Assembly (NCBI RefSeq): GCF_000430785.1
Contig: NZ_KE387246.1
Location: forward strand, 1-64,000
Direction: 5' to 3'
Origin: Ectobacillus panaciterrae DSM 19096
GTDB taxonomy: Bacteria; Bacillota; Bacilli; Bacillales; Bacillaceae_G
DNA: 64,000 nt
Part shown: positions 1 to 55,607 of the stretch, piece by piece
Layout of the letters: each line of letters starts with the position of its first letter
Numbering within the stretch: the first letter of the stretch is position 1
Notes under the pieces: generated by a model
What the model saw: the letters and a program-made list of their open reading frames with translations, nothing else
Told to the model about the DNA's origin: nothing
Databases searched by the model: none
Position numbers and translations under genes: made by a program

Positions 1-2
1 AT

Positions 3-88
3 GCCGGGGTGGCGGAACTGGCAGACGCACAGGACTTAAAATCCTGCGGTAGGTGACTACCGTACCGGTTCGATTCCGGTCCTCGGCA
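3..88 (+). tRNA. tRNA-Leu (TAA)
   Basis: Complete class II cloverleaf with a long variable arm. The acceptor arms GCCGGGG and CCTCGGC pair, the anticodon loop is CTTAAAA and the T-loop motif GGTTCGATTCC is present. CCA is not encoded. It lies at the very edge of the window, so the cluster probably continues upstream. Confidence 0.95.
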
Positions 89-95
89 CTTTAAT

Positions 96-169
<74 letters not shown>

Positions 170-174
170 TATTA

Positions 175-248
175 CGGGAAGTGGCTCAGCTTGGTAGAGC
201 ACCTGGTTTGGGACCAGGGGGTCGCAGGTTCAAATCCTGTCTTCCCGA
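175..248 (+). tRNA. tRNA-Pro (TGG)
   Basis: Acceptor arms CGGGAAG and CTTCCCG pair. Anticodon loop TTTGGGA gives TGG. T-arm CAGGTTCAAATCCTG. CCA is not encoded. Confidence 0.95.
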
Positions 249-254
249 TATTTT

Positions 255-327
255 GGGGCCTTAGCTCAGCTGGGAGAGCGCCTGCCTTGCACGCAGGAGG
301 TCAGCGGTTCGATCCCGCTAGGCTCCA
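255..327 (+). tRNA. tRNA-Ala (TGC)
   Basis: Acceptor arms GGGGCCT and AGGCTCC pair, including the diagnostic G3-T70 wobble. Anticodon loop CTTGCAC gives TGC. CCA is not encoded. Confidence 0.96.
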
Positions 328-330
328 TAC

Positions 331-423
331 GGAGGAATACCCAAGTCTGGCTGAAGGGATCGGTCTTGAAAACCGACAGGCGGTGTGAGCCGCGCGGGGG
401 TTCGAATCCCTCTTCCTCCGCCA
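331..423 (+). tRNA. tRNA-Ser (TGA)
   Basis: Class II tRNA with an extended variable arm. Acceptor arms GGAGGAA and TTCCTCC pair, the anticodon loop CTTGAAA gives TGA, and the 3' CCA is encoded. About 120 bp of AT-rich spacer follows before the next tRNA. Confidence 0.96.
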
Positions 424-542
424 TTTTATTTAATGGCATATAATGTCCCGACGCATCAATCATCTTCGAATGAACTAGAAGGGAAAGGGACAGTCAAGTA
501 ATAACCTAATTCAGGTTATAATTAACATATTATTCTTAACGT

Positions 543-619
<77 letters not shown>

Positions 620-622
620 AAT

Positions 623-698
623 GGTCCCGTGGTGTAGCGGTTAACATGCCTGCCTGTCACGCAGGAGATCGCCGGTTCGATCCCGGTCGGGACCGCCA
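623..698 (+). tRNA. tRNA-Asp (GTC)
   Basis: Acceptor arms GGTCCCG and CGGGACC pair; anticodon loop CTGTCAC gives GTC; CCA is encoded. Only 3 bp separate it from the initiator tRNA. Confidence 0.96.
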
Positions 699-701
699 TT
701 T

Positions 702-774
<73 letters not shown>

Positions 775-823
775 TCCTAGTTAACATCATATTAAAATGA
801 ACGTAATAATGAATTTATAAAAT

Positions 824-896
824 GCCGGCTTAGCTCAATTGGCAGAGCAACTGACTTGTAATCAGTAGGTTGGGGGTTCAAGTCCTCTAGCCGGCA
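824..896 (+). tRNA. tRNA-Thr (TGT)
   Basis: Acceptor arms GCCGGCT and AGCCGGC pair; anticodon loop CTTGTAA gives TGT. CCA is not encoded. About 50 bp of AT-rich spacer separates it from tRNA-Phe. Confidence 0.95.
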
Positions 897-902
897 TCAG
901 TT

Positions 903-976
903 AGGGGTATAGTTTAAAGGTAGAACAGAGGTCTCCAAAACCTCCGGTGTGGGTTCGATTCCTACTACCCCTGCCA
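903..976 (+). tRNA. tRNA-Trp (CCA)
   Basis: Acceptor arms AGGGGTA and TACCCCT pair; anticodon loop CTCCAAA gives CCA; the 3' CCA is encoded. Confidence 0.95.
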
Positions 977-985
977 AGTCAAAAG

Positions 986-1062
<77 letters not shown>

Positions 1063-1069
1063 TAATTAT

Positions 1070-1144
1070 TCCGCAGTAGCTCAGTGGTAGAGCTATCGGC
1101 TGTTAACCGATCGGTCGTAGGTTCGAGTCCTACCTGCGGAGCCA
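1070..1144 (+). tRNA. tRNA-Asn (GTT)
   Basis: Acceptor arms TCCGCAG and CTGCGGA pair; anticodon loop CTGTTAA gives GTT; CCA is encoded. Confidence 0.96.
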
Positions 1145-1145
1145 T

Positions 1146-1217
1146 GGCCCGTTGGTCAAGCGGTTAAGACACCGCCCTTTCACGGCGGTAACACGGGTTC
1201 GAATCCCGTACGGGTCA
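1146..1217 (+). tRNA. tRNA-Glu (TTC)
   Basis: Acceptor arms GGCCCGT and ACGGGTC pair; anticodon loop CTTTCAC gives TTC. CCA is not encoded. It is the last tRNA of the cluster and a terminator follows directly. Confidence 0.95.
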
Positions 1218-1225
1218 TTTAAAAA

Positions 1226-1899: not shown

Positions 1900-1984
1900 T
1901 ATTTTTGTATTTATTTTTACAATTTAATTTTTATTTCCATTTTATATACAAAAAATGGTATAATTAAGTAAAATATTAACAAAG

Positions 1985-2187
1985 TATATATAAATGCAAC
2001 TAAAAAAATTGACATAAAAACTTTTCTTCTAGGGGGGAGAGAGCATCCGACTAAGCATAGAAGCGGTCAAACCCTTTTCGTGGTCCATGCAGGGAGAGAG
2101 AGGGAGCGAGCGAGCGAGCGCAGTTTCCCTTTTGTTCTACGTGGCAAACGACAGATATGTCGGAATAATAAAGCGGACTTATATAAA
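1985..2187 (-). repeat. MITE-like interspersed repeat, copy A (subfamily 1)
   Basis: Read on the minus strand this matches 45716-45912 along almost its whole length. Shared blocks include AGAACAAAAGGGAAACTGCG, CCACGAAAAGGGTTTGACCG and TTTTTTAGTTGCATTTATAT. The ends carry imperfect inverted repeats beginning TATATAA and reaching a GACAT motif. It contains no plausible gene. It fills most of the 374-bp gap before the next gene and has a GAGC(GAGC)n expansion (GGAGCGAGCGAGCGAGCG) that copy D lacks. Confidence 0.8.
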
Positions 2188-5480: not shown

Positions 5481-5501
5481 GACTATGTTAATTTCATAGG
5501 A

Positions 5502-5590
5502 TGCTAGGGGAGCTGGTGTTGCCGGCTGAGAGTATGACCGTGAGTCAATGACCCTTGACCTGATCTAGATAATTCTAGCGTAGGAAAGCA
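5502..5590 (+). ncRNA. TPP riboswitch 1 (THI box), intact
   Basis: Carries all THI-box landmarks: CTAGGGGAGCTGG, the CTGAGAG pyrimidine-sensing motif, GACCCTTGACCTGATCTAGA, and AATTCTAGCGTAGGAAAGCA. The P1 ends TGCT and AGCA pair. A terminator follows, giving an OFF switch when thiamin pyrophosphate is bound. It precedes tenA and the thiamin genes. Confidence 0.95.
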
Positions 5591-5606
5591 ATGGACGATG
5601 ATTGAT

Positions 5607-14004: not shown

Positions 14005-14192
14005 TATATATATGAGTGAATGATAATTTCGACATTTCCATGTGCTATGTGCAACCAAAAGGGAGTATGGTATGCTTCTTCTCTCTGGTTTACCCTTTCA
14101 TGAACCACTACAAAGGTTTAACCGCTTCTGCACGCCGCCGGATGATCTCTCCCCACTATATAAAAAGATGGTTTTTTATTCACTTGTATATA
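14005..14192 (+). repeat. MITE-like interspersed repeat, copy B (subfamily 2)
   Basis: Ends are imperfect inverted repeats, TATATATGAGTGAAT on the left and ATTCACTTGTATATA on the right. The interior is nearly identical to 33213-33397 (shared blocks AAAAGGGAGTATGGTATGCT and GGATGATCTCTCCCC) and shares a core with copies A and D. It lies in the 400-bp gap between the patatin gene and the transporter. Reading frames inside it look fortuitous. The rest of that gap, 13853-14004, holds nothing I can identify. Confidence 0.8.
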
Positions 14193-17874: not shown

Positions 17875-17897
17875 ATGCTCGCTGTTTTACTAACAGC

Positions 17898-18003
17898 TCT
17901 TATCTCTCAGCGCGCATAGCGCTGCAAGAATTAGCACCGTGCCCATATGGGTCGGTTGCCGGGCTTCTTAGGGCTCGTCCCTCCACCTGCTCTTGATAAG
18001 AAA
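17898..18003 (-). ncRNA. SAM-I riboswitch (S-box)
   Basis: Read on the minus strand it carries CTTATCAAGAGCAGGTGGAG, GGCAACC, ACGGTGCTAATTC and CTGAGAGATAAG, the S-box landmarks in order, with P1 formed by CTTATC and GATAAG. With the downstream terminator it should switch the transporter off when S-adenosylmethionine is plentiful. Confidence 0.95.
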
Positions 18004-33212: not shown

Positions 33213-33397
33213 TATATACGAATGAATTATAAATTCGACATTTCCATGTGCTATGTGCAATCAAAAGGGAGTATGGTATGCTTCCTTTCTCTGGTTTACC
33301 CTTGCATGAACCACTACAAAGATTTGACCGCTTCTGCACGTCGCCGGATGATCTCTCCCCCCTATAAAAAGACGGTTTTTTTATTCACTTATATATA
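33213..33397 (+). repeat. MITE-like interspersed repeat, copy C (subfamily 2)
   Basis: Nearly identical to 14005-14192 inside (AAAAGGGAGTATGGTATGCT; GGATGATCTCTCCCC; AAAAAGACGGTTTTTTT). Ends TATATACGAATGAAT and ATTCACTTATATATA form the inverted repeat. It fills most of the 320-bp gap between the convergent murP and arsB genes. Confidence 0.82.
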
Positions 33398-35085: not shown

Positions 35086-35182
35086 TTGGGAGACGGCTCT
35101 ACCGGCTAGGCGCTGCCGTCCAAGAGCTGCCGCCGCCGGAGAACCTTGGTTTTTGCATCTCGAAGGTTCCGCTTTTCTCTTT
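35086..35182 (+). repeat. long-hairpin repeat, copy 1 (partial)
   Basis: Left arm CTACCGGCTAGGCGCTGCCG resembles the 53.7-kb units; right arm GAACCTTGGTTTTTG then CTCGAAGGTTCCGCTTTTCT resembles the 44.9-kb unit. CCAAG (35116) pairs with CTTGG (35145). Part of the middle is missing. Confidence 0.7.
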
Positions 35183-37647: not shown

Positions 37648-37690
37648 AAAGTAAGGGGGCTCGCAAAAGCACCGCTTTAGCCATCCATAT

Positions 37691-37894
37691 TTATTTTTGG
37701 TAACCGCCTAATTGTGACTCAGCCATTGCTACAAGGCGTTTTGTAATCTCTCCGCCTACAGAACCGTTTGCGCGTGCAGTTGCTTCTGCTCCAAGGTTTA
37801 CCCCAAATTCAGAAGCAATTTCATACTTCATAGAATCCAGTGCAGATTGTGCACCGGGCACTGCTAATTTGTTAGAAGAATTTTGATTTGGCAT
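37691..37894 (-). CDS. alpha/beta small acid-soluble spore protein
   Basis: A 67-residue SASP that coats spore DNA and is degraded at germination. The GPR cleavage site region [10 protein letters not shown] and the C-terminal [19 protein letters not shown] are the family signatures. AGGAGG precedes the ATG. It is divergent from a second SASP gene; both have CATACTATGAGTAC promoter boxes. Confidence 0.96.
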
Positions 37895-38155: not shown

Positions 38156-38353
38156 ATGGCACGTAGCACAAACCAATTGGCAGTATCTGGCGCACAATCT
38201 GCGTTAGACCAAATGAAGTATGAAATCGCTTCTGAGTTCGGCGTAACCCTTGGACCAGACGCTACATCTCGCGCTAACGGTTCTGTTGGCGGTGAAATCA
38301 CTAAGCGCCTTGTATCTATGGCTGAGTCACAATTAGGTGGATTTCAACGATAA
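38156..38353 (+). CDS. alpha/beta small acid-soluble spore protein
   Basis: A 65-residue SASP closely similar to the divergent neighbour ([10 protein letters not shown] and [19 protein letters not shown]). TAAGGAGG precedes the ATG and a terminator follows. Having the two genes divergent suggests an inverted duplication. Confidence 0.96.
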
Positions 38354-38365
38354 ATTATGGCTACC

Positions 38366-44868: not shown

Positions 44869-44984
44869 ATTCTGGGAGCCTTCGAGGCGCTGCCATCCAA
44901 GAACCTCCGCCACAAAAAGGCAAAAAACGCTTTTTAGGGCGGAGAACTTTGGTCTCTGCGTCTCGAAGGCTCCGCTTTTCTTAT
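44869..44984 (+). repeat. long-hairpin repeat, copy 2
   Basis: Arms GGAGCCTTCGAGG and the closing TCTCGAAGGCTCC pair; inner pairs CCAAG/CTTTGG, CCTCCGCC/GGGCGGAG and AAAAAGGC/GCTTTTT follow. It ends CCGCTTTTCT like the other units. It may serve as terminator for yheA and the convergent glycosylase gene. Confidence 0.85.
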
Positions 44985-45715: not shown

Positions 45716-45912
45716 TATATAAGTCCACTTTGTTATTCCGACATATCTATCGTTCGCCACATAGAACAAAAGGGAAACTGCGCTCGCTCCCTCTTTATGC
45801 TTTACCCCTGCATGGGCCACGAAAAGGGTTTGACCGCTTCTACGCTTAGCCCGATGATCTCTCCCCCTAAAAGAAAAGTTTTATGTCGATTTTTTTAGTT
45901 GCATTTATATAG
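45716..45912 (+). repeat. MITE-like interspersed repeat, copy D (subfamily 1)
   Basis: Nearly identical to copy A read in reverse. Shared blocks include AAGTCC...CTTTGTTATTCCGACATATCT, AGAACAAAAGGGAAACTGCG and CCACGAAAAGGGTTTGACCG. It ends in TTTTTTAGTTGCATTTATATA. Most of the 573-bp gap before galE is this element and its neighbour. Confidence 0.82.
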
Positions 45913-49807: not shown

Positions 49808-49877
49808 GATGTCTAGCTCCACCGGCAAGGCGCTGCCACCAGAGAACCTGGGCGGGCCGGTTCCGCTTTTCGTGATA
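49808..49877 (+). repeat. long-hairpin repeat, copy 3 (internally deleted)
   Basis: TGTCTAGCTCCACCGGCAAG, GCGCTGCCACCAGAGAACC, then directly GGGCCGGTTCCGCTTTTCGTG. The internal arms are lost but the outer pair CACCGGC/GGCCGGT remains. Confidence 0.82.
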
Positions 49878-52855: not shown

Positions 52856-53644
52856 ATGACTGTGTCAAGTTCTACAGAATGTGTAATTGTAAAATACGAA
52901 GGACGTATTGCAACTGTTATGTTAAACCGTCCGAATGTGTTAAATGCTTTGGATGAAGCGACACTAAAGGAATTGCTTCATAAATTGAAAGAAGTATCCG
53001 AAAGCGCAGCGGATGTAATCGTGCTGTGTGGAAACGGAAGAGGGTTCTCAGCAGGCGGCGATATTAAGTCTATGCTGTCTGACAGTGATGAAAGCAAGTT
53101 CTTGCCGATTATGAACACGATTTCTGAGCTTGTATTGACACTATACACGATGCCGAAGCTTGTAATCAGCGCTATTCACGGTCCGACTGCGGGACTCGGA
53201 CTTAGCTTGGCTTTAGCGGCAGATTATGTAATCGCTGACATTTCTTCTGTGATTGCGATGAACTTCATCGGCATTGCGCTGATTCCGGACGGCGGCGGCC
53301 ATTTCTTCCTGCAAAACCGTCTTGGCGAATCGCTTGCGAAGCAGATTATTTGGGAAGGCAAACGTATGTCTGCAACGGAAGCATTGAAAATCGGCATGAT
53401 CGATGAAGTGGTGGAAAAGGGCTTCCCGCAAGCTGTAAAGCAAAAAGCGGAAGAATGGCTGCAAAAGCCTGTAAAAGCCATGGTGCAAACAAAGCGTATT
53501 TTATGTCAAGGAAACAAAGAGGCGCTATTAAAAGTGCTGGAGCTTGAGAAGGAAGGTCAATTCCAAATGCGTACAACAGCGGATCATAAAGAAGGTATTC
53601 AAGCCTTTTTGGAAAAACGCGCACCTGTATTTCAAGGGAAATAA
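52856..53644 (+). CDS. yhaR: enoyl-CoA hydratase/isomerase (YhaR-like)
   Basis: A 262-residue crotonase-fold enzyme. The CoA-binding oxyanion segment FSAGGDIKSM is near residue 65, HGPTAGLGLSLALAADYVIA near 110 and the second catalytic region IPDGGGHFFLQNRLG near 143. Family role: hydration or isomerisation of enoyl-CoA. Position before yhzD-yhaO-yhaN matches B. subtilis yhaR. AGGGGAGGG precedes the ATG. Confidence 0.85.
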   Translation: MTVSSSTECVIVKYEGRIATVMLNRPNVLNALDEATLKELLHKLKEVSESAADVIVLCGNGRGFSAGGDIKSMLSDSDESKFLPIMNTISELVLTLYTMPKLVISAIHGPTAGLGLSLALAADYVIADISSVIAMNFIGIALIPDGGGHFFLQNRLGESLAKQIIWEGKRMSATEALKIGMIDEVVEKGFPQAVKQKAEEWLQKPVKAMVQTKRILCQGNKEALLKVLELEKEGQFQMRTTADHKEGIQAFLEKRAPVFQGK

Positions 53645-53668
53645 GGAGCCTGCTGGCTCCTTATTTCT
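53643..53668 (+). terminator. terminator after the yhaR-like gene
   Basis: Stem AAGGAGCC/GGCTCCTT with loop TGCT. Confidence 0.85.
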
Positions 53669-53669
53669 A

Positions 53670-54057
53670 TTGTTCTGCGCCTGAACGAGCCGGTTCCGCT
53701 TTTCGTGATGTCTAGCTCCACCGGCTAGGTGCTGCCACCAGAGAACCTCGCCCACACAAAAGCAAAAAGCGCTTTTGAGGGGCGAGAACCTCTGGTTCTG
53801 CGCCTGAGCGAGCCGGTTCCGCTTTTCGTGATGTCCAGCTCCACCGGCTAGGTGCTGCCACCAGAGAACCTCGCCCACACAAAAGCAAAAAGCGCTTTTG
53901 AGGGGCGAGAACCTCTCCGATTCCGCTTTTCTTGTGTCTAGCTCCATCGGCCAGCTCCCAACGCCAAAATAACCTTCCCCATACAAAGCCAAAAAGCGGC
54001 TTTGATGGTGAAGAACATTTTGACGAGGGAGCTAAGCGGGCCGATTCCGCTTTTCTA
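53670..54057 (+). repeat. tandem cluster of long-hairpin repeat (three units plus a partial)
   Basis: A right-end fragment (53670-53710), then units at 53711-53833 (complete), 53834-53934 (right arm truncated) and 53937-54057 (diverged). In the first unit CACCGGCT/AGCCGGT, AGGTGC/GCGCCT, CCAGAG/CTCTGG, CCTCGCCC/GGGGCGAG and AAAAGC/GCTTTT build one extended hairpin. The third unit changes both strands of several arms, for example TCGGCC/GGCCGA and AGCTCCC/GGGAGCT, so pairing is preserved. No coding content. Confidence 0.9.
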
Positions 54058-54243
54058 TTAGCGTTGAAACAAGACAAGCTTGGCGCTTGAGCTTGTGCAG
54101 CGGTGCGTGTGTCCATACAGATTTTTCTCGCGCAGCAGCTGCTCTCCTTTTTCTTTTGCTTCTCCTTCATTGCTTGCTTCAAATGTTTGATCTAACAGCT
54201 TTGTGCCGTCTTTTTCATAGGCTGTTACTGTATAAACTCCCAT
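54058..54243 (-). CDS. yhzD: YhzD-like small protein
   Basis: A 61-residue protein with the segment YTVTAYEKDGTKLLDQTFEA followed by ATSEEAKEKG-like helix. Matches YhzD, which lies near yhaR and yhaO in B. subtilis from memory. Function unknown. A GGGGGAT site lies upstream on the minus strand. Confidence 0.75.
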   Translation of the reverse strand: MGVYTVTAYEKDGTKLLDQTFEASNEGEAKEKGEQLLREKNLYGHTHRCTSSSAKLVLFQR

Positions 54244-54374: not shown

Positions 54375-55607
54375 ATGAGACCATTAACGTTTATTCATGC
54401 AGCGGATTTACATCTTGACAGCCCATTCAAAGGAATGGAAGCAAATGTCCCGCCTGTCTTATTTGAGAGAATGAAAGAAAGTACGTTTCGCTCTTTTGCC
54501 CGCGTCATTGATAGGGCCGTTCAGGAGAGAGTGGATTTTGTCGTGTTGTCCGGCGATTTATATGATGCCCAGACGCGCAGCCTGCGCGCGCAAATTTTTG
54601 TCAGAGATCAATTGCGCCGCCTTCACGATTACAGTATTCCGGTTTATGTGATTCACGGCAATCATGACCATTTGGGAGGCAACTGGGCAGCCATTGAATT
54701 CCCTGACAATGTACATATTTTTACAGAGTCTTATGTAGAACGAAAGCCGTATTATCGTGACGGAGAGCTGATGGCGTATATATACGGCTTTAGCTATCAT
54801 CAAAAAGCGGTGACAGAAAACATGACAAATCAATATAAAAAAGAGAAGGGCGCACCGTTTCATATCGGTCTGCTTCACGGAAGCCTTGACGGGAACAGCG
54901 AACACGGCCGTTACGCACCGTTTTTGCTGAGTGAGCTTCTAGAGAAGAATTTTGACTATTGGGCGCTCGGTCATATTCATAAGCGGAGTATTTTATCAGA
55001 ACAGCCGCCAATTATTTATCCTGGAAATATACAAGGGAGGCATCGAAAAGAAACAGGAGAAAAGGGATGCTATCTCGTAAAGCTTGAATTGGAAGCATCA
55101 TCACAAGTATTTATTCCGACGGCAGACATCCTTTGGAATGAGATAGAAGTTTCTATTGAAGGGGTACATCAGGCAGATGAACTATTGGAGCGCTGTTATG
55201 AAGCGATGAATAGCGTGCGCCGCGAAAATGAAGGCGTTCTTGTGTCGCTCACTTTTTCAGGGTATGGCGTAATGTCCCCGTACTTACAAGATGCGCGAGA
55301 GGAGCTTGTACATATATTGCAAAGCGGAGAAGAGAGAGAAAATTTCGTCTACATTGTGAAGTGCAACGATAAAACCCTCTCTCGCGACACGTGGGAGCAA
55401 ATGAAGAAGGAACATCATTTCTTCGGCGCTCTTCTAAAGGAAGCGGAACAGTTCAAAGAAATTGACGGGATTTTGCGTCCGCTTTGGGCATCGTCTGCGG
55501 CAAGAGAGCTGGAAATGTTTTCAGCAGAAGAAAAGCAAGAAATTCTAAAGGAAGCGGAGCGTATTGTGATACAAGGGCTGATGGCAGAGGAGGCGGATAA
55601 AAGATGA
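54375..55607 (+). CDS. yhaO: DNA repair exonuclease YhaO (SbcD-like)
   Basis: A 410-residue metallophosphoesterase of the Mre11/SbcD type. Metal motifs: DLHLD near residue 11, GDLYD near 60, GNHDH near 98 and GHIHK near 200. In other bacteria the SbcD/SbcC complex cuts DNA hairpins and ends; here YhaN likely supplies the ATPase. It overlaps yhaN by 4 bp. Start ATG 54375 behind GAGGAGA; a TTG one codon earlier is not needed. Confidence 0.9.
   Translation: MRPLTFIHAADLHLDSPFKGMEANVPPVLFERMKESTFRSFARVIDRAVQERVDFVVLSGDLYDAQTRSLRAQIFVRDQLRRLHDYSIPVYVIHGNHDHLGGNWAAIEFPDNVHIFTESYVERKPYYRDGELMAYIYGFSYHQKAVTENMTNQYKKEKGAPFHIGLLHGSLDGNSEHGRYAPFLLSELLEKNFDYWALGHIHKRSILSEQPPIIYPGNIQGRHRKETGEKGCYLVKLELEASSQVFIPTADILWNEIEVSIEGVHQADELLERCYEAMNSVRRENEGVLVSLTFSGYGVMSPYLQDAREELVHILQSGEERENFVYIVKCNDKTLSRDTWEQMKKEHHFFGALLKEAEQFKEIDGILRPLWASSAARELEMFSAEEKQEILKEAERIVIQGLMAEEADKR

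Follow-up and report, generated by a model that had tools for sequence, protein, structure and literature searches.

A family of covarying palindromic hairpin repeats in Bacillales, possibly a non-autonomous mobile element

The 64,000-nucleotide stretch of the Ectobacillus panaciterrae DSM 19096 genome analysed here (the window) carries a head-to-tail array of long hairpins at 53672-54056 on the + strand, which belongs to a large family of intergenic palindromes. With moderate confidence, we regard this family as a non-autonomous mobile repeat of Bacillales, whose hairpin would be kept by selection on its propagation as single-stranded DNA at the replication fork. The window features discussed in the text, together with other features found nearby, are listed in Table 1.

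Table 1. Repeat units and neighbouring features of the 64-kb window (bits, covariance-model score; z, folding relative to shuffles)
Feature	Positions	Strand	Remarks
Array, truncated first unit	53672-53704	+	retains just the lower 3' arm and the right box (TTCTGCGCCTGAACGAGCCGGTTCCGCTTTTC); phase 86
Array, full unit, subfamily A	53709-53827	+	145.3 bits; -55.2 kcal/mol, z -5.0
Array, internally deleted unit	53832-53931	+	75.6 bits; z -2.45
Array, full unit, subfamily with helix TCGGCC/GGCCGA	53935-54055	+	112.1 bits; z -5.9
Solo intact copy, CCTTCGAGG/CTCGAAGG subtype without 5-nt bulge	44869-44980	+	95.6 bits; z -7.3
Solo copy, upper hairpin deleted	49810-49871	+	44.8 bits; z +0.46 (no better than shuffles)
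Solo decayed copy	35090-35177	+	41.8 bits; z -0.41 (no better than shuffles)
Terminator-like hairpin, native to upstream gene	53637-53668	+	array starts just downstream
Upstream flank gene, enoyl-CoA hydratase-like (by reading its sequence)	52856-53644	+	outside the element
Convergent small ORF, 61 aa	54058-54243	-	outside the element; stop codon faces array end
Second interspersed repeat family	14007-14164, 33213-33370, 45786-45876, 1980-2186		last copy inverted
Inverted repeat	37689-37873 / 38171-38355		185-nt arms, 79% complementary, 297 nt apart
tRNA cluster	1-1218		13 genes
TPP riboswitch	5496-5603	+	
SAM riboswitch	17897-18002	-	

Structure and distribution of the family

A full unit is about 119-123 nt long and consists of the left box TGTCYAGC, helix 1 (AGC/GCT), a small loop (3+3 in the cross-genus comparison), the 7-bp helix 2, the 6-bp helix 3, inner stems with small loops above it, and the closing right box CCGCTTTTC. 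The 3' arm carries a 5-nt bulge, RRNCR, between helices 2 and 3. The geometry of this lower element is identical in nearly every unit across genera, with helix 2 being Watson-Crick in 83 of 84 cells and helix 3 in 67 of 72. Most of the seven pairs of helix 2 show two or three pair types, and the C of the bulge is conserved in 12 of 12 cases. Apart from the boxes TGTCYAGC and CCGCTTTTC, it is the shape rather than the sequence that is conserved.

The covariation is overwhelming, across genera too. In 52 copies from the source genome, 94.9% of cells are paired compared with 84.4% in shuffles, both-sided changes occur at 21 of 36 pairs, and double-change cells number 200 versus 66 in shuffles; in slid controls only 30-52% of cells are paired. 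A second genome, with 34 distinct units, gave the same result, the alignment there being fitted to the model. These data agree with the sequence-only reading of the window, which had described hairpin arms changing on both sides to keep pairing. The arm sequence pairs quoted there are correct, and its fixed closing box corresponds to the near-invariant right box.

In the window's array, a truncated unit is followed by a full one, then by one with an internal deletion, and last by a full unit that belongs to a different subfamily. The first full unit forms a single long hairpin with the 5-nt bulge GAGCG on the 3' arm and an AAC/AAC loop, while most of the lower 3' arm is missing from the deleted unit, leaving its long stem unable to close. 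The right box of the last unit lies 2 nt short of the TAA stop codon (54058-54060) of the convergent small ORF. Three array units and three solo copies had been proposed to fold into one long hairpin each. This holds for two array units and the solo copy at 44.9 kb, which fold far better than shuffles, but not for the deleted array unit or the copies at 49.8 and 35.1 kb, which are products of deletion or decay. The 35.1-kb copy is preceded by the leader AAGAAAGAATAAAATTTTTGGGAG, present at some copies of this genome.

The family is far larger than chance would give and larger than the sequence-only reading reported: the source genome contains 58 blastn matches and at least 147 matches to a covariance model made from 52 of its units. 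Matches were found in 43 of 60 related genomes, all of them Bacillales and many with 20 or more, and in none of 148 genomes sampled across the phylum (at 1e-7). The sequence-only reading was right that similar elements lie between Bacillaceae genes. Named relatives of identical build are found, for instance, in Rossellomorea aquimaris, Sutcliffiella halmapala, and Peribacillus asahii. An exact-pattern scan of named genomes found five loci only, in Peribacillus, Rossellomorea, Sutcliffiella, and one Trichococcus stretch that on inspection is without a full unit, so this pattern was too narrow. Neither blastn against 72,556 plasmids and 50,697 phages nor an exact-pattern search of viral contigs gave a match.

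In keeping with the sequence-only reading, no known family was found for the element. The array matches no Rfam 15 family at the gathering score, the best sub-threshold matches being eukaryotic or viral miRNA hairpins far under it, and a search of a literature collection by sequence strings and keywords found no description of the hairpin family. We report it as new and unnamed, as judged against the descriptions of the bcr and Bhal-1 repeats. It is a large family of repeated intergenic DNA in many Bacillales, yet has no Rfam entry.

Two further repeats were observed. Copies of the second interspersed family (Table 1) are 77-92% identical, occur in both orientations, and end in ATATATATGAGTGAATGATAATTTCGACATTT; elsewhere in the genome this end abuts truncated hairpin units (loci L021, L048, L123, and L131). 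The third repeat, of about 120 bp (GATGAAACTTCATC ... GGACGCTTAGAGCGGG), lies inside hairpin units at L021, L056, L116, L024, and L151. It has ATAA on both sides in several copies and is a nested insertion with a likely 4-bp duplication.

Array ends, insertion sites, and orientation

The arrays are strongly polar. Of 106 arrays from two genomes, about 96 share a constant right end; the left ends vary, and about 60 arrays begin within the 3' arm of an extra unit. Among 82 multi-unit arrays, 75 open with a partial unit, and nearly all later units are full, some 'D' assignments in the unit parse being artefacts in which full units were split at the apex. Random decay was rejected as the cause of the truncated first units, since later units are spared. 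The reading of arrays as 1.25 turns of a circular template was rejected as well: the truncated and full units have just the lower stem and the right box in common, their upper parts often coming from different subfamilies.

Within the common part, truncated units are more similar to the 3' end of their own neighbour than to that of other units (13 identical versus 1.1 expected, p 7e-7), and the first bases of the downstream flank recur in some linkers (for instance at L016 and L017, by inspection). These shared variants and flank-copying linkers suggest that, besides dispersal, templates are switched locally. Copies reverse-transcribed from an RNA multimer, with a fixed 3' end bearing a U-run and a truncated 5' end, would also yield 3'-fixed and 5'-truncated arrays, and the forward strand does end in a hairpin followed by UUUUC. 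However, the truncation points are concentrated in one part of the second unit rather than scattered, and truncated and full units have locus-specific variants and linkers in common, which makes this origin extremely improbable.

The bases following the right end are T (89%), T (78%), and A (47%), and in 21 of 106 arrays the end coincides exactly with the TAA stop codon of a facing ORF. All four gene contexts occur around arrays. Direct repeats of 2-6 nt, sought as target-site duplications, are no commoner than in shuffled pairings. The possibility that the reverse strand is an IS608-like element, cleaved at ATAA and TCAA, was also considered and rejected, since the second site is missing from the array ends.

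In genome G000 only, a subset of arrays has the leader AAGAAAGTAT opposite CTTTTCTT, a candidate for terminal inverted repeats. At some copies of this genome (for instance L012, L051, L107, and L157), a 24-nt leader AAGAAAGTATAAAATTTTGGGNGC stands left of the first unit, its AAGAAA mirroring the right-end CTTTTCTT. The leader was not seen in the inspected copies of G003 or G044. One array (L023, about 1640-1700) ends in an inverted leader (GCTGGACATGCCCCAAAATTATAATTTC), a head-to-head arrangement seen nowhere else.

The site of the window's array is empty in three relatives of the same genus (L197, L198, and L199, upstream of the orthologue of the gene at 54378-55607), where a terminator-like hairpin stands next to the convergent small ORF with no array; the same upstream gene end is also kept in L197 and L198. 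In one orthologous gap (L012 and L089), the arrays have opposite orientations, one lying before and one after the terminator. The atpE-atpF gap of the ATP synthase operon likewise contains units in opposite orientation in two families (L129 and L074), both downstream of the hairpin following atpE. These oppositely oriented arrays are best read as independent insertions. Further, G000 and G003 have a few occupied sites in common, with the elements oriented alike, which would also fit retention for function. No transposition event was seen within a species; the empty sites all come from related species, so these sites may alternatively have lost the element.

The orientation of arrays is biased relative to replication. 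In the closed genome G003, with dnaA at 2.447 Mb and a dif-like site at 0.404 Mb, 23 of 26 arrays are co-oriented with the fork (Fisher p 1.6e-4), as are 30 of 42 arrays in G027 (p 0.011; terminus assumed opposite dnaA). The contig-majority orientation is found in 73 of 88 arrays of G000 versus 59 in shuffled data (0 of 20,000 shuffles), and the bias persists there where the neighbouring genes point the opposite way (11 versus 4). As arrays point with the fork, it is their forward strand that the lagging-strand template would expose. The bias itself is real, but it does not significantly exceed ordinary gene co-orientation, assumed to be 75% (p 0.08 in G003 and 0.77 in G027).

We propose that a unit would fold as single-stranded DNA at the replication fork, where a protein encoded by the host or by the element would recognise the constant boxes and the bulged stem. 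This protein would join the right end to TTA/TTAT-like DNA, frequently beside a terminator or a TAA stop codon. If templates were then switched locally at the hairpin, tandem units, the truncated first unit, and occasional copying of one arm onto the other could result. Selection would maintain the hairpin in the spreading lineages, and each resident copy would drift afterwards.

Origin of the covariation

The sequence-only reading took selection for the stem to imply a role in RNA or as a cruciform. The RNA role is unsupported by the comparison of closely related copies. Among nearest-neighbour units with at most four differences, 18 single stem changes are uncompensated versus 3 compensated, and with up to 12 differences the numbers are 138 and 57. 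Per-site rates at no more than eight differences are similar, about 1.85 in stems and 2.13 outside. The mostly uncompensated stem changes and the similar rates at paired and unpaired sites show that resident copies drift. G-U versus A-C cells number 36 versus 82 in G000 and 18 versus 26 in G003; as these cells are non-independent, the claim is limited to there being no forward-strand G-U excess. A DNA hairpin is still compatible with the data, and in place of the cruciform we prefer a single-stranded DNA hairpin serving propagation.

The likeliest competing explanation is a host-selected RNA element at gene 3' ends, its pairing being selected in RNA at each site, where it might act as a back-up terminator (a forward-strand stem followed by UUUUCUU), a 3' stabiliser, or an antisense barrier. 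The strong covariation in two genomes, the many arrays placed after a gene end and before the next stop codon, the TTTTCTT following helix 1, and the sites occupied in both G000 and G003 would all suit it. We nevertheless consider it unlikely, since the stems of close copies change at nearly the rate of unpaired sites and for the most part uncompensated, G-U pairs are not in excess on the forward strand, a native terminator often already stands beside the array, and arrays occur in all four gene contexts. Inside the window's array there is one terminator-like match (54034-54052), and shuffles give nearly as much.

Copying between the arms has taken place. In seven units, a single step has replaced the 3-nt AAC/AAC loop with a sequence exactly complementary to the other arm, which is a mark of template switching. 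The loop is intact in 93 of 106 and 32 of 34 units, and since both loop and bulge persist in most copies, arm-to-arm copying contributes to the covariation but is not its sole cause. Inverted duplication within each copy, named in the sequence-only reading as a refuting condition, does take place in this form but falls short of explaining everything.

A purely mutational origin, with quasipalindrome correction at stalled forks keeping the arms complementary without selection and slippage spreading units locally, would account for these seven one-step replacements, for the variants that truncated first units share with their own neighbours, and for the scarcity of single-change intermediates relative to double changes. 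It is distinctly unlikely in view of the intact AAC/AAC loops, the 5-nt bulge kept across genera, and the predominance of uncompensated changes in close copies; it also leaves the dispersal to more than 100 loci unexplained. Selection on spreading lineages followed by neutral decay fits best with the combination of covariation and drift. The family thus provides a clean case in which overwhelming covariation alone need not mean RNA function, and its hundreds of natural variants with fixed geometry offer material for finding the recognising protein.

Candidate mobilising enzymes and known repeat systems

A Y1/RAYT transposase was rejected as the mover, as it shows neither co-occurrence nor linkage with the repeat. 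The complete genome G003, with 45 matches to the family, has no PF01797 (Y1) match, and no unit was found at any of 37 Y1-gene loci; RAYT-type proteins were recognised here by length and score in the PF01797 list alone. The bulged hairpin with constant feet, the replication-direction bias, the absence of target duplication, and the AT-rich adjoining site would be expected of REP/REPIN- or IS200/IS605-like elements moved, now or formerly, by a Y1 HUH transposase (RAYT or TnpA), and longer weak-scoring PF01797 proteins, possibly RAYTs, occur in several Bacillales genomes. Such an identity is very unlikely, because the presence of the element does not track Y1 genes: G000-G003, G009, G012, and G041 list no PF01797 match of this longer kind despite many elements. 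Moreover, no element was found near the examined Y1 genes, and the units have no GTAG tag and are arranged head-to-tail, not as inverted doublets.

The units may be moved by a host factor, or a transposase that moved them may since have been lost. More tentatively, the repeats could represent an order-wide class of structure-recognised single-stranded-DNA palindromes that spread at the fork by means of a host protein instead of a dedicated HUH transposase. This protein, taken from host replication or recombination, would read the combination of 7-bp helix, RRNCR bulge, and 6-bp helix. If no transposase were needed, one could ask how host replication alone spreads palindromes.

REP sequences are 20-40 bp long, carry the tag GTAG or CGTC, often form inverted dimers, and in the survey describing them occur mainly in Proteobacteria (PMC3733652). 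The hairpin repeat is similar to REP, REPIN, and BIME elements in being an interspersed extragenic palindrome with a constant unpaired foot and grouped copies, and a single-stranded DNA logic is presumed for both. It differs in its length of about 120 nt, its head-to-tail arrangement, its feet TGTCYAGC and CCGCTTTTC in place of the GTAG/CGTC tag, and the lack of a linked RAYT (0 of 37 Y1-gene loci). An IS200/IS605-derived element (PATE) would be expected to leave no target duplication, to adjoin a short fixed target, and to be biased by the fork; here no target duplication was found and the flank is TT(A), the significant fork bias being one not separated from gene orientation. Compared with a MITE of a DDE transposon, no target-site duplication was found, and the inverted match between leader and right end is confined to a subset of G000 arrays.

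The attC sites of integrons are long covarying hairpins read by shape through extrahelical bases. The hairpin repeat is alike in principle, but on inspection its constant ends are without the RYYYAAC/GTTRRRY core boxes, and no integrase or cassettes were found. Since the repeat resembles REP and attC in working but fails their defining tests, it is counted as a separate family.

Among the stem-loop repeats of Bacillales, the Bhal-1 family of Bacillus halodurans is a 74-nt conserved repeat with 36 copies (PMC2267715). By that description, the two have in common that they are stem-loop repeat families of this order, and they differ in length. The closest in kind, judging by description, appear to be the group A repeats bcr1-bcr3 of the B. 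cereus group, short chromosomal intergenic repeats described as MITE-like in structure and function and reported to be confined to that group; the passages describing them name no transposase. The mark of bcr1 is its TTTAT flanks, and it has 11-130 copies. By these descriptions, the bcr and hairpin repeats are alike in being short, intergenic, and of high copy number, whereas the hairpin family spans many families of Bacillales, forms head-to-tail arrays, and carries the 5-nt RRNCR bulge.
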